Shown: positions 33,573-40,122 of the stretch, one piece after another | How positions within the stretch are numbered: position 1 is the stretch's first letter | Layout of the letters: every line of letters begins with the position of its first letter | The notes under the pieces: model-generated | Databases searched by the model: none | What the model saw: only the letters and a program-made list of their open reading frames with translations | Told to the model about the DNA's origin: nothing | Position numbers and translations under genes: made by a program | Assembly (NCBI RefSeq): GCF_003991135.1 | Contig: NZ_CP016379.1 | Span: forward strand, 2,976,001-3,040,000 | Reading direction: 5' to 3' | From: Anoxybacter fermentans | Lineage (GTDB): Bacteria; Bacillota; Halanaerobiia; DY22613 | DNA length: 64,000 bases

Positions 33573-34913
33573 GATGATGTCAAGAATTTTGTGTAAATGA
33601 ATTCTCAAGATCTATAACGCTCTTTGAAAAGTTGTTGTAATTGTTCTTTAGCACTTAAAAAACCTTTCATTTTTTGGTTACTCCATTTGGTATTATAATC
33701 AATAACTTTCAAGTAAATAATCTTCTCAGCTGCTGTCTCAGTTGGTAAGCTGTTAACTGGATTTAACCTTTTACGAAGCTCTTTAATAGCTCTTTTTATC
33801 CAGTTGGTAGTATAGATTGCCTTACGAATCTCAGATGGATACTTATAGAAGGTCAGAAGTTCGTTTTATTCATTCCACCAACTTTGAGTAATTTTAGGGT
33901 AGATTTGTCCCCATTTATCGCAAAATTCCTTTAATGCCTTTTTGGCATACTCCGTGTCAGGAGCATTATAAATGGTTTTTAAATCTTCTATTATTTCATT
34001 CAAATGCTTTTTACGTACTTTGGTTATAGTGTTTCTAACTCTATGTACAATACACCGTTGTACGTCGGCTTTAGGATAAACTTTGAGAAATGCATCTTTT
34101 AATTCCGAAAGACTATCCATGACACCCAATAAAACTTCTTCCAGTCCCCTGGACTTTAAGTTTAACAAAACTTCTTCCCAGAGAGCAGAAGATTCTGAAG
34201 CGCCTATATAGAAATCAAGAATCTCTCTATAACCTTCTTCATCGATGCCAATGCTCATATATACAAGTTCATTGTCAACATACTCACGAAGCAACTTTAC
34301 ACTCATACCATAAATGTATAGAACGCTTAACGTCTTTTGAATTTTCGTTGATGTCATTTATTCAGTTCTTCTAAAGCAACATCTGTTAAATTGCTGACAG
34401 AGGATGCGCTATATTTGGTATCGTACATTTTTTCAATAGTTTCAGCAATATCTCTGGCACTGAGACCTTTGGCATACATGTTAATGATCATTTCTTCTAA
34501 CCAATTGTCACAACGCTGATGAGGCTCAAAAAGAACAGTTTTAAATTCACCATTTCGATCTCGTGGCATCTTTAAATCCTAAATATTACCATATTTAGTT
34601 TTAAGGTTGCGAGTATAATAACCATTGCGACTATTACCTGAATTTTTACTTTTAGGGTCATATTTTTCATAGTTTAAAAACTCAATCAGTTCAGCCTTGA
34701 GGAGTTTTTGAATAAATTCCTTAATCAAATCAGTTAATAAACTATCTAAATCTAATTGACCTGTCAATAACTTTTGAAGTATAAAGTGGAATTCTCCTTT
34801 AGGTTGAGATTTTTGTTAGGCAAACAATTACTTCAACCTTTCAAAGAGGATTCCCTTTTTTTATTTATGTGAGATCTCACAAAAGCCATCTATACAAAAT
34901 ATTATACACTACT
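33573..34913 (-). mobile_element. IS256-family insertion sequence, transposase broken
   Basis: Transposase pieces on the minus strand within 33605-34767: IKEFIQKLLKAELIEFLNYEKYD...NSRNGYYTRNL, PRDRNGEFKTVLFEPHQR..MYAKGLSARDIAE, SIGIDEEGYREILDFYIGASES..GVMDSLSELKDAF..VQRCIVHRVRNTI (mutator signature), and SEIRKAIYTTNWIKRAIKELRKRLNP to the stop. Several stops and shifts (near 34570, 34355 and 33866) break it. The left end GATGATGTCAAGAATTTTGT at 33573 resembles IS256-type ends; the right end is placed near 34913 by a weaker match (ACAAAAT...ACTC). Confidence 0.8.
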
Positions 34914-35603: not shown

Positions 35604-35876
35604 ATGTCAAAAAAAGAAATAAAGAAAGATTTAATAAATCGTATTCGAACTATTAAGGGACACCTTGGTGGAATTGAGAAAATGATTGAAGAAGGTAAAA
35701 GTTGTGAACAGATTCTAATTCAGATTAATGCTGTTAAAGCTGCAATGAATAAAATTGGAATGGCAATAATAGAAAATTATACAGAAGAATGTATAATGGA
35801 TGCAATAAATTCACCGGAAAATTTGCAGAAGAAAGTTAGAGATATTATTGAAAGTTTAGTTAAATTCTCTAGATAA
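35604..35876 (+). CDS. CsoR/CstR-family transcriptional repressor (DUF156)
   Basis: 90-residue all-helical repressor. The two family cysteines are present as C34 (GKSCEQ) and C63 (EECIMDAI), spaced 29 apart. The copper-ligand His that sits four residues before the second Cys in CsoR is replaced by Tyr (Y59), and no other His is nearby, so copper sensing is unlikely; a persulfide-sensing CstR-like role is possible, which would fit the rhodanese-TusA fusion 1.8 kb downstream. ATG with GAAGGGGG. Confidence 0.8.
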   Translation: MSKKEIKKDLINRIRTIKGHLGGIEKMIEEGKSCEQILIQINAVKAAMNKIGMAIIENYTEECIMDAINSPENLQKKVRDIIESLVKFSR

Positions 35877-36072: not shown

Positions 36073-36101
36073 TTGATTTTACTAATTTTTTATGTTAAAA
36101 T
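36073..36101 (+). promoter_or_regulatory. Sigma-A promoter for TPR gene
   Basis: TTGATT, 17-base spacer, TAAAAT, about 75 bases before the ATG. Confidence 0.55.
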
Positions 36102-36176: not shown

Positions 36177-37208
36177 ATGCGTGAAAAGATTAAGCAGCTT
36201 TTAAAAAAGTATAATGCCATTGGAAGAAAGAAACTTTATAAGGAGAGAAAATATGAAGAGGCTCTTGAATATATAATTAGAGCTATTCAATGTGCAGAAT
36301 TGTTAGATGATTGGGATGGAATTGTACAGAACAGATTATTATTGGGACATGTTTATCTTAATTCAATGAAAGATTTAAATTATGCTGCTGAAATTTATAC
36401 TAAAATTTTAAAAATGTTTGAAGAAAAACAATCTGAAGAAGTAATAGAAAAGAGTGAAGAGTATTTTAAATGTAAATATGCTTTAGCAAGAACTCTACGC
36501 AAATTGGGAAAGCTAGATCAAGCGATTTCTATTTTAGAGGATATTGAATCAAAATTCCATGATAATGAAACCAGAATTAATGTTTTTAATGATCTAGGTT
36601 TAACTTACTGGCGTAAAGCCAGTGTAACACAAAATAAAATTTATTTAGATGAAGCAATTCGGATTTATGATCTTGCGATTGAGCTATGTAATGAGGAAGT
36701 TTTACATAAATCAAAAGCTATGGTTTTAAATAATAAGGGAATGGCCTATTATGATCAACAACAATATGACCTGGCTATTAATACTTTTAATGAAGCTTTA
36801 TCTTTAACTAATGATGAATTTTATATTGCTTGTATAAGTAATGAAATTGCTAAAACCTATTTAAAACTGGGTAACTTTCATATGGCTAAAAAGTTTATTA
36901 ACAAAGCTAATCAAATTCTTTTAGATTATGATGAAAAGGCCGGTGAAATTGAACTATTACGGAACCTGGCTATTGAAGGATTATACCAGAGGAAGATAGG
37001 TAATTTTGAAGATGCCGTAAATTACTTCGAAATGGCAGCAACGAAATTAGAAGATAGAGAATTAAAAATAGAAGCTGCCGAAACTTTTCATCAGTTATCT
37101 CTTATGCTAAAAGAGCGTGGTGATATTCGTTCTGGTCGCTATGCGCTTAAATTTGAGGAATTGGCAAAAGAGATTGAAGAACAGGAACAAAGGTTAATTT
37201 CAAGTTAG
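36177..37208 (+). CDS. TPR-repeat protein, Rap-like length
   Basis: 343 residues made of about seven to eight tetratricopeptide repeats (for example EALEYIIRAIQCAE, DQAISILEDIE, YDLAINTFNEALSL, EDAVNYFEMAATKL) with no recognisable HTH, enzyme or signal sequence. Cytoplasmic. TPR proteins of this size without an HTH include the Rap phosphatases that bind exported peptides. The next gene, 35 bases downstream and apparently in the same transcript, encodes an exported small repeat protein. Function unknown; pairing is inference. Confidence 0.75.
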   Translation: MREKIKQLLKKYNAIGRKKLYKERKYEEALEYIIRAIQCAELLDDWDGIVQNRLLLGHVYLNSMKDLNYAAEIYTKILKMFEEKQSEEVIEKSEEYFKCKYALARTLRKLGKLDQAISILEDIESKFHDNETRINVFNDLGLTYWRKASVTQNKIYLDEAIRIYDLAIELCNEEVLHKSKAMVLNNKGMAYYDQQQYDLAINTFNEALSLTNDEFYIACISNEIAKTYLKLGNFHMAKKFINKANQILLDYDEKAGEIELLRNLAIEGLYQRKIGNFEDAVNYFEMAATKLEDRELKIEAAETFHQLSLMLKERGDIRSGRYALKFEELAKEIEEQEQRLISS

Positions 37209-37243
37209 TAATACTTTTATAATAATGAAAGGGGGAAGTTGTA

Positions 37244-37558
37244 ATGGGGAGGGTATTTAAAGGTCTAGTATTGATGTTGGGAGTTTTCCTGTTGGTCTGG
37301 TTGCCATGTGCTTTCGCTAATGGTCCTATTGAAGAGCCATTAGCACTTAGTGGACCAATTGAGCAGCCGATGGAACTTGACGGACCAATTGAGCAGCTAA
37401 TAGGATTTGACGGACCAATTGGGCAGCCAATGGAACTTGGTAGATTAATTGAGCAGCTAATAAGACTTGGCTGGCCAATTGAGCAGCTAATAGGACTTGG
37501 CGGTCCGATTGAGCAACCAATGATGCTAGAAGGTCCGATTGAGGAACCAATTCAATAA
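37244..37558 (+). CDS. Small exported decapeptide-repeat protein
   Basis: 104 residues: signal peptide (basic start, hydrophobic LVLMLGVFLLVWLP, likely cleavage after AFA), then eight near-tandem 10-residue units of the form GPIEQPMELD, the last truncated (GPIEEPLALS, GPIEQPMELD, GPIEQLIGFD, GPIGQPMELG, RLIEQLIRLG, WPIEQLIGLG, GPIEQPMMLE, GPIEEPIQ). The DNA repeats with a 30-base period. ATG follows AAGGGGG. No homologous family recognised. It could be a peptide-pheromone precursor or a small surface protein. Confidence 0.75.
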   Translation: MGRVFKGLVLMLGVFLLVWLPCAFANGPIEEPLALSGPIEQPMELDGPIEQLIGFDGPIGQPMELGRLIEQLIRLGWPIEQLIGLGGPIEQPMMLEGPIEEPIQ

Positions 37559-37567
37559 ACATAAAAT

Positions 37568-37601
37568 AAAAGATACACCTTTAATAAAGGTGTATCTTTT
37601 T
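37568..37601 (+). terminator. Rho-independent terminator
   Basis: AAAGATACACCTTT / AAAGGTGTATCTTT with tetraloop AATA, then T-run; closes the TPR-repeat protein pair. Confidence 0.9.
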
Positions 37602-37635: not shown

Positions 37636-40122
37636 TTAGATAAAGAGGTTAACATTGGATTCCTCGGCTGCTCCTAGATAATTTGCAACTCCACCAATTT
37701 CTACACCATCGATTAACTCTTCTTTTTTAATACCCATTACATCCATTGACATTTGACAGGCTACAAGGCGAACACCTGCCATTTTTGCCTGGCCAATTAA
37801 GGCTTCTAAGGAATCAACACCTTTCTTTTTCATAACATAACGAATCATTTTTGGACCAATACCCATCATGTTCATTTTTGAAAGACCGAGTTTTTTGCTT
37901 CCCCTGGGCATCATCATACCGAACATTTTATCTAAAAAGCCTTTTTTAACTTTTACTTTTTGATTTTTTCTTAGAATATTTAATCCCCAGAAGGTAAAGA
38001 ACATGGTAACTTTACGTCCCATTGAAGCAGCACCGTTAGCGATAATAAAGGAAGCAATGGCCTTATCCAGATCTCCACTGAATATAATTATAGTTTTATC
38101 CTGCGGTAGATTTGTCACCTGATTTGTCATTTCCTGATTCTTTCCACCACCTTTTTGAATATATGCAATAAAACAGTTATCGGTTTTTTCTTGTTTGAGC
38201 AATTTATTACCAGTACGTTTGCACCAGGCAGGGATGTCGGTAACAAAACCAGGGTCTGTAGCCCTTACTTCAAGAACCTGACCATCTTTTAAATGTTTCA
38301 TCTTTTGATAGACCTGCATAATTGGTCCAGGACATTGAAGGCCGCAGGCATCTAATTTAACTGTTTCCTGTGTTGATATTACAGCTTCTTTTGCGTTGAC
38401 GGTTTCTTTCTCTACAACATTACAGCAGGAAGAACCGGATGTTGAGTTAGTTGAATCATTTTGAAGGTTCAATTCCTTAATTACGGTTTTATAGGTCTTA
38501 TAGCCACCACTTAAATTTTTGACTTTAGTAAAACCGTGTTGTTTAAGAATTCGGCTAGCAATATAGCCACGCAAACCAACCTGACAGTAAATAATAATTT
38601 CTTTATCTTTAGGTAATTCATTTAAGCGATCTCTTAATTCATCGACAGGAATGAGAATAGCACCCTCAATAGCTCCTAAATTCCATTCCATTTTTGTTCT
38701 TACATCGACGAGAACAGATTTATTAAGATCTAGTTTAGGAATTTCATGCCAATGGATGATGTCAGTATCCCCATTGATAATATTACCTGCAGCATAGCCA
38801 GCCATGTTAACAGGGTCTTTAGCAGAGGAGAATGGTGGAGCATAGGCCAATTCTAATTCTTGTAAGTCAAAGACGGTCTTACCGAAGCGGATTGCGGTTG
38901 CCAATACATCAATCCGTTTATCAACACCTTTATAACCGACAATCTGGGCTCCTAAAAGTTTGCCTTCGGGAGTAAAGAGTATCTTTATTGACATAGGGAT
39001 TGCACCTGGATAATAACCGGCATGAGATCCAGAGTGAGTAATGGAAGCTATATATTTAATTCCTTCACGCTTTAGAGTTTTTTCATTGGCACCTGTTGAT
39101 GCTACAGTAAGATCGAAGACTTTGGCAATGGCCGTACCTTGAGTTCCTTTATAAGTTTCTGGACGTCCAGCGATATTATTGGCAACAATACGTCCTTGTT
39201 TATTGGCTGGCCCAGCCAATGGAATTAATGTATTCTTTTTTGTAATGAAATCTTCAACTTCAATAGCATCACCAATAGCGTAAATGGATGGATCAGAAGT
39301 TTGTAAATATTCGTTTACTTTAATACCGCCCCGTTTACCCAGTTCAAGACCACACGATTTAGCAAGGGTTGTATCGGGACGAACACCGATGGCTAAAATA
39401 ACTAAATCAGCAGTGATCTCTTTACCGCTTTGAAGAGTGACCTGGACCTGACCGGACCGGTCTTTGAAAGATTTGACACCATCTTTCAGGATTAAATTGA
39501 CATTTTTGGAGCGAATATGCTCATGAACAATGGCAGCCATTTCAAAATCAAGGGGAGCCATTACCTGGTCGGCCATTTCCACTATAGTTACATTAAGACC
39601 TCTGTGATGCAAGTTTTCTGCCATTTCAAGACCAATAAATCCACCACCCACAACAATAGCTGATTTTGGTTTTTTGTTGTCAATATATCCCTTAATTTTA
39701 TCCATATCCGGAATATTGCGTAATGTGAAAATATTTGGATGATCTATGCCGGGAATGGGTGGTTTAACAGGGTTAGCGCCGGGTGAGAGTATTAAATAAT
39801 CATAGCTTTCAGTATAAGTCTCACCTGTTTTGTGATTTTTAATTTTTACAACTTTATTTTCACGATCAATAGCAATAACTTCATTAAGAACTCTGACATC
39901 AATATTAAAACGTTTTTTCATAGCTTCAGGAGTCTGAACCAGAAGTTTGCTTCTTTCAGTGATTACTTCACCAATGTGATATGGGAGACCACAATTGGCA
40001 AAGGAGATATGCTCGCCGCGTTCCAGTAAAATAATTTCTGCGTTTTCATCAATTCGTCTAAGCCTAGCAGCAGCACTGGCTCCACCGGCTACACCACCAA
40101 CAATGACAACCTTTTTACCCAT
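37636..40122 (-). CDS. CoA-disulfide reductase / rhodanese / TusA / DsrE fusion
   Basis: 828 residues. (1) FAD/NAD-dependent CoA-disulfide or polysulfide reductase, about 1-450: VGGVAGGASAAARLRR, redox Cys44 in FANCGLPYHIG, NAD site VVGGGFIGLEMAENL, FAD site YAIGDAIEV. (2) Rhodanese domain, about 460-555, active loop CQVGLRGY (Cys near 513). (3) TusA-type sulfur carrier, about 588-660, CGLQCPGPIMQV. (4) DsrE/F-like domain, about 670-828, ending in conserved ACQMSMDVMGI. The fusion joins persulfide reduction, transfer and carriage in one chain, so it likely handles zero-valent sulfur or persulfides in the cytoplasm. Preceded by a palindromic operator and an ArsR gene in the same direction. ATG with GGGGGT. 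Confidence 0.9.
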   Translation of the reverse strand: MGKKVVIVGGVAGGASAAARLRRIDENAEIILLERGEHISFANCGLPYHIGEVITERSKLLVQTPEAMKKRFNIDVRVLNEVIAIDRENKVVKIKNHKTGETYTESYDYLILSPGANPVKPPIPGIDHPNIFTLRNIPDMDKIKGYIDNKKPKSAIVVGGGFIGLEMAENLHHRGLNVTIVEMADQVMAPLDFEMAAIVHEHIRSKNVNLILKDGVKSFKDRSGQVQVTLQSGKEITADLVILAIGVRPDTTLAKSCGLELGKRGGIKVNEYLQTSDPSIYAIGDAIEVEDFITKKNTLIPLAGPANKQGRIVANNIAGRPETYKGTQGTAIAKVFDLTVASTGANEKTLKREGIKYIASITHSGSHAGYYPGAIPMSIKILFTPEGKLLGAQIVGYKGVDKRIDVLATAIRFGKTVFDLQELELAYAPPFSSAKDPVNMAGYAAGNIINGDTDIIHWHEIPKLDLNKSVLVDVRTKMEWNLGAIEGAILIPVDELRDRLNELPKDKEIIIYCQVGLRGYIASRILKQHGFTKVKNLSGGYKTYKTVIKELNLQNDSTNSTSGSSCCNVVEKETVNAKEAVISTQETVKLDACGLQCPGPIMQVYQKMKHLKDGQVLEVRATDPGFVTDIPAWCKRTGNKLLKQEKTDNCFIAYIQKGGGKNQEMTNQVTNLPQDKTIIIFSGDLDKAIASFIIANGAASMGRKVTMFFTFWGLNILRKNQKVKVKKGFLDKMFGMMMPRGSKKLGLSKMNMMGIGPKMIRYVMKKKGVDSLEALIGQAKMAGVRLVACQMSMDVMGIKKEELIDGVEIGGVANYLGAAEESNVNLFI

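Follow-up and report, generated by a model that had tools for sequence, protein, structure and literature searches.

The window analysed here, a stretch of 64,000 nt from Anoxybacter fermentans (a member of the Halanaerobiales), carries a gene for an HTH-less TPR protein and, 35 bp downstream, a gene for a small protein that is predicted to be exported (Table 1). G-rich Shine–Dalgarno-like sites precede the start codons of both ORFs. An earlier sequence-only reading had described a Rap-length TPR protein without HTH domain, a small gene 35 bases behind it encoding 104 residues with a signal peptide and eight near-tandem 10-residue units, and a strong terminator. All of these elements were recovered, and the units proved to be exactly contiguous.

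Table 1. Features of the TPR/peptide locus and of related loci. Positions are those of the window unless a locus (L) is named.
Feature	Position	Strand	Basis or remark
Short ORFs resembling broken transposase fragments	33866-34767	-	upstream of the locus
CsoR-family repressor gene	35604-35876		flanks the pair
Possible promoter of the pair (TTGATT, 17 nt, TAAAAT; TG precedes the second hexamer)	36073-36101	+	consensus match only
HTH-less TPR protein gene, 343 aa	36177-37208	+	ORF, Pfam TPR_12, AlphaFold2, structural matches
Putative multi-copy peptide precursor gene, 104 aa, predicted exported	37244-37558	+	sequence, period-10 test
Signal peptide, residues 1-25, likely AFA^N cut	37244-37318	+	sequence, hydropathy rule, AlphaFold2 helix 2-25
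Eight units without gaps (core GPI[EG][EQ]P[LMI]), GPIEEPIQ being the C-terminal one	37322-37555	+	period-10 test, dN/dS
Intrinsic terminator, 15-bp perfect stem, bidirectional	37568-37600	.	common to the pair and the convergent gene
CoA-disulfide reductase-rhodanese-TusA-DsrE fusion gene	37636-40122		convergent; flanks the pair
XRE / ~90-aa neighbours of TPR loci	L033 2569-3090, 2049-2321
XRE / ~90-aa neighbours of TPR loci	L034 1961-2500, 3929-4471
XRE / ~90-aa neighbours of TPR loci	L035 4207-4716, 4906-5178
XRE / ~90-aa neighbours of TPR loci	L116 1244-1756, 745-1107
XRE / ~90-aa neighbours of TPR loci	L109
Two small ORFs, predicted exported	L037 3373-3513, 3517-3699		follow one TPR gene
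116-aa repeat protein, predicted exported	L044 4103-4453		sister genus (G001)

In the 343-aa protein, Pfam matched TPR-type models alone (TPR_12, E 3.4e-25) and no HTH domain; the Rap subfamily likewise lacks one. The length of the protein lies within the 250-500 aa of TPR-containing RRNPPA receptors. An AlphaFold2 model computed from a two-row alignment (mean pLDDT 89) shows sixteen long helices in a TPR superhelix. Compared with the PDB by Foldseek, the model was closest to eukaryotic LGN (TM 0.74), and its bacterial matches included NprR, RapI and Rap of pLS20 (TM about 0.6); Rap structures aligned with an rmsd of about 8. A profile search listed generic TPR proteins, with Rap absent from the best 60 PDB chains, and the protein failed to show any Rap-specific homology beyond the generic TPR. 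Rap proteins join an N-terminal three-helix bundle to a C-terminal TPR domain; in the 343-aa protein, a TPR_12 match begins near residue 21. We consider the 343-aa protein likely to be a cytosolic peptide receptor.

The 104-aa protein begins with a Sec-type signal peptide, MGRVFKGLVLMLGVFLLVWLPCAFA, recognised from the sequence and a simple hydropathy rule. Together with the Shine–Dalgarno-like site, this gives the adjacent small ORF with a Sec signal that is expected of RRNPPA systems, an arrangement that is rare beside other genes. The remainder comprises seven full decamers and a final octamer (GPIEEPLALS GPIEQPMELD GPIEQLIGFD GPIGQPMELG RLIEQLIRLG WPIEQLIGLG GPIEQPMMLE GPIEEPIQ). The core GPI[EG][EQ]P is intact in five of the eight units and degenerate in three (GPIEQL, RLIEQL, WPIEQL). 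Identities at period 10 numbered 37, compared with a maximum of 19 in 20,000 shuffles. Codon comparison showed purifying selection on the GPIEQP core (dN/dS 0.21 for positions 1-6 of the eight units) and none on the linker (dN/dS 0.94 for positions 7-10, counted over the seven full decamers). No family was found for the protein in NCBIfam, Pfam or PHROGs.

The genome of the window (G000) is a single contig of 3.56 Mb. A first search gave one other genome of its family, G001, which belongs to a different genus. There, a CsoR-like gene, a TPR gene, a small ORF predicted to be exported, a hairpin equivalent to the terminator of the window and a CoA-disulfide reductase gene follow each other in this order. 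The two TPR proteins are 66% identical. The small protein of G001 has 63 aa and reads MRKVIVCLVLSLVVGLFFASVVSA-GPIQKPV-GAEAYSCVVSQSVVENSNDAPVVIM-GPIQRPV; it resembles its G000 counterpart essentially only in the signal peptide and in GPI[EQ]xP plus a hydrophobic residue. Instead of eight tandem units, it carries two separated copies, GPIQKPV at the likely signal-peptidase cut, where the mature protein would start, and GPIQRPV at the C terminus. The score of the shared core was reached by 98 of 20,000 shuffles, which, taken alone, is modest support. Conservation of the core between the genera, along with the dN/dS contrast, is the pattern expected of RRNPPA precursors, in which the peptide is kept and the rest diverges. 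The locus is found in two genomes only, as the G000 and G001 types, and the sole further locus in a scan of genome contigs, in the MAG Halothermothrix sp. B5_bin.9, is of the G001 type. No TPR orthologue was present among 300 genomes of the phylum, the single outside match being a 678-aa HTH-TPR protein, and viral contigs held no relatives.

Similar pairs recur around related TPR genes. In the stretches of G000 and G001 fetched around TPR relatives, rather than the whole genomes, a small ORF predicted to be exported adjoins 20 of 38 TPR relatives, as opposed to 7 of 231 other ORFs of similar size (Fisher p 2.3e-14), and three of these seven controls are themselves more divergent TPR pairs. The sequence-only reading had named, as what would speak against it, TPR homologues consistently lacking a small exported neighbour; the orthologue in G001 keeps one, and so do about half of the relatives. 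Many of these exported ORFs are unrelated in sequence although their TPR neighbours are related. TPR genes with a peptide neighbour are mostly lineage-specific, whereas those without one are mostly 1:1 orthologues between the two genera, as expected for fast-changing signal pairs.

Most precursors of the family have 41-74 aa, and their tails are rich in Pro, Gly and Asp (e.g. TTNGPLPIADED, NGPTWPGDS, TTNNWPDPDEN, TTSNWPGFSED). One orthologous pair, L034/L046, conserves little but GP[TN]WPxD (GPTWPGD and GPNWPPD; score reached by 22 of 20,000 shuffles), and in a further pair the likeness is weaker (TTDPFLP and TTDPGIP; 429 of 20,000). The search for other TPR/repeat-peptide pairs that had been proposed yielded, besides the G001 orthologue, a 116-aa protein at the non-orthologous locus L044, built of about six 14-aa units, DPQNGGDEPFRTEG, whose gene precedes a TPR gene by 167 bp. 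Judged by its sequence, it is a second putative multi-copy precursor of the TPR/peptide family. At L037, the two small ORFs end in ...TPSPDPAD and ...TTDGPSPAPSEGW, and they may represent two signals for one receptor.

XRE-type HTH proteins of about 170 aa flank several TPR loci of G000, though not the GPIEQP pair. Four of these XRE/TPR loci also encode a conserved protein of about 90 aa (MxxYYLLLxNGT...HGDExYWxKVLELL) with no Pfam match. This arrangement suggests a recurring cassette of XRE protein, TPR protein, peptide and 90-aa protein in G000, and the separate XRE neighbours suggest that DNA binding can reside in a protein of its own.

Altogether, these observations support the peptide-signalling pair proposed from the sequence, and we think it quite probable that the two genes form a Rap–Phr-like (RRNPPA-type) system with a multi-copy precursor. 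The precursor would leave the cell via Sec, and proteases outside the cell would release from it several copies of a short peptide, roughly GPI[EQ]xP followed by a hydrophobic residue, which an oligopeptide permease would re-import and which would then bind in the groove of the TPR protein. Since this protein has no DNA-binding domain, it would need to act on a partner, for example a response regulator or an XRE-type regulator encoded by another gene. We infer export, processing, import, binding and target from Rap–Phr biology. The G000 genome encodes nine SBP_bac_5 oligopeptide-binding proteins. It also encodes Spo0A, so that a Rap-like action of the TPR protein on the phosphorelay would be possible. 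Against the signalling model stand the generic TPR profiles, LGN as the best structural match, the TPR_12 match near residue 21 where Rap would have its three-helix bundle, the restriction to two genomes, the three degenerate units and the modest shuffle support for the shared core.

The pair resembles Rap–Phr in its HTH-less TPR protein of similar length, the predicted exported precursor directly downstream and the putative signal at the C terminus, and differs from it in having no specific sequence relationship to Rap and in its eight exactly tandem decamer units with GPI[EQ]xP. That multi-copy precursors exist elsewhere had been stated correctly; that none were known in this form had to be amended. 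RRNPPA propeptides of the NprR, AimR, PlcR and Rap subfamilies carry up to six identical or pseudo-repeated pheromone copies (PMC9765709), as opposed to eight contiguous units, five with intact core, in the present case. Tandem copies are functional in Phr105 and Phr3T of Bacillus Rap–Phr, where internal copies are kept and spacers are not, as here (PMC11343458). The HTH-less pair as such is likewise not new, because RRNPPA subfamily 17, which by its description also has HTH-less TPR receptors with adjacent precursors, has been predicted in Anoxybacter fermentans (PMC12700828). The kind of system is therefore already known from multi-copy RRNPPA precursors and HTH-less pairs; what is new is the eight-copy variant with the GPIEQP core. 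Paenibacillus genomes similarly hold many receptor/peptide pairs each (PMC7425212), but the receptors described here lack an HTH domain, with XRE proteins encoded as separate genes beside several relatives. The locus points to a large expansion, for the most part undescribed, of such HTH-less pairs within a single Halanaerobiia family, the two genomes having about 8 and about 15 of them. By default, RRNPP_detector keeps precursors of 10-100 aa (PMC10075063), a setting rather than a biological limit. It accommodates the orthologue in G001 but would pass over the 104-aa precursor, so surveys with this tool may have missed the pair. The precursor with eight tandem copies is thus a case that a length cut-off would hide.

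A genome-wide codon scan for GPI[EQ]xP gave five matches in G000 and six in G001; the precursor gene accounts for four of the former and its orthologue for two of the latter. Only three of the matches outside the precursor genes fall in recognisable proteins. One, GPIEVP, belongs to a signal-peptidase-I-like protein of G001 and is presumably a chance match. The other two lie in one secreted S8 subtilase per genome, at an aligned prodomain position that reads IVFSGPIEEPMKAW in G000 and VVMDGPIQRPVSAE in G001. These two subtilases have an overall identity of 69%, and among solved structures SubHal and KP-43-type proteases are closest to them. Each subtilase heptamer, GPIEEPM in G000 and GPIQRPV in G001, is a variant of the precursor of its own genome (G000 units GPIEEPL, GPIEQPM and GPIEEPI; G001 copies GPIQKPV and GPIQRPV). 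Local alignments of precursor and subtilase scored 43 and 44 within genomes, 36 and 33 across genomes and 12-26 with homologous prodomains elsewhere; compared with sampled ORFs, the subtilase scored 36 against 28 for the next match, and 38 against 20. GPI[EQ]xP is not the usual motif of subtilase prodomains: homologues read GPVRDSW, GPVQENW or DVIKDEW, and Pro at position 6 with loss of Trp at 7 is therefore particular to this family.

About one match to the motif is expected per proteome by chance, and the two subtilases are orthologues. What carries weight is therefore the agreement of positions 4, 5 and 7 with the variant of the same genome, for which a rough estimate puts the chance near one in a thousand. 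A looser pattern gave matches only below the control level. A parallel search of exported proteins for GP[NTK]WP, the motif of another pair, found nothing comparable, and the subtilase link therefore does not hold generally. We treat it as an unproven lead drawn from sequence comparison. If it holds, it would be a rare instance of one peptide code used by both a pheromone gene and the prodomain of a protease. We regard as unlikely, though worth stating, the extension that the TPR protein would read both, monitoring protease secretion via the discarded prodomain, with all three components co-evolving.

The same motif could instead mean that the small protein mimics a prodomain segment and modulates the protease as inhibitor, folding helper or competing substrate, with no signalling to the TPR protein. 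The genome-specific variant in one KP-43-type subtilase per genome fits such a role, which nevertheless leaves the tight TPR linkage and the pairs with other peptides unexplained and finds no parallel in the GP[NTK]WP search. Moreover, in subtilase prodomains it is the C-terminal tail, and not the segment corresponding to GPI[EQ]xP, that fills the active site. We judge this explanation improbable. A signal peptide followed by a tandem repeat is also what a structural repeat protein, secreted or at the surface, would show, its TPR neighbour being coincidental or a chaperone. This alternative, raised in the sequence-only reading, is disfavoured by the variation in copy number and length (eight tandem units in 104 aa against two separated copies in 63 aa), by the absence of any anchor motif that we could see in the 104-aa protein, by repeats for which AlphaFold2, run without an alignment, gave no confident fold, and by the unrelated exported ORFs beside many related TPR genes; we give it little credence.

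Finally, a small precursor with predicted export in a two-gene operon might yield an antimicrobial, bacteriocin-like product, with the TPR protein as regulator or immunity factor. The locus showed neither a modification enzyme nor a dedicated transporter, and nothing in it matched a bacteriocin family; on either side lie genes for a metal-type repressor and a persulfide-reductase-like fusion. We consider this reading highly improbable. The Rap–Phr-like signalling pair remains the interpretation that we favour.

The CsoR-family and CoA-disulfide reductase fusion genes flank the pair in both genera and are reminiscent of persulfide-response loci; they may be functionally linked to it. Elsewhere in the genome of the window, L103, L104 and L105 (G000:C1:2686000-2728500) form a cluster whose membrane-anchored TPR proteins closely resemble each other, begin with MKFIWKYKKMIILLLIILIYIGYRLTLNPEE and apparently arose by recent duplications.
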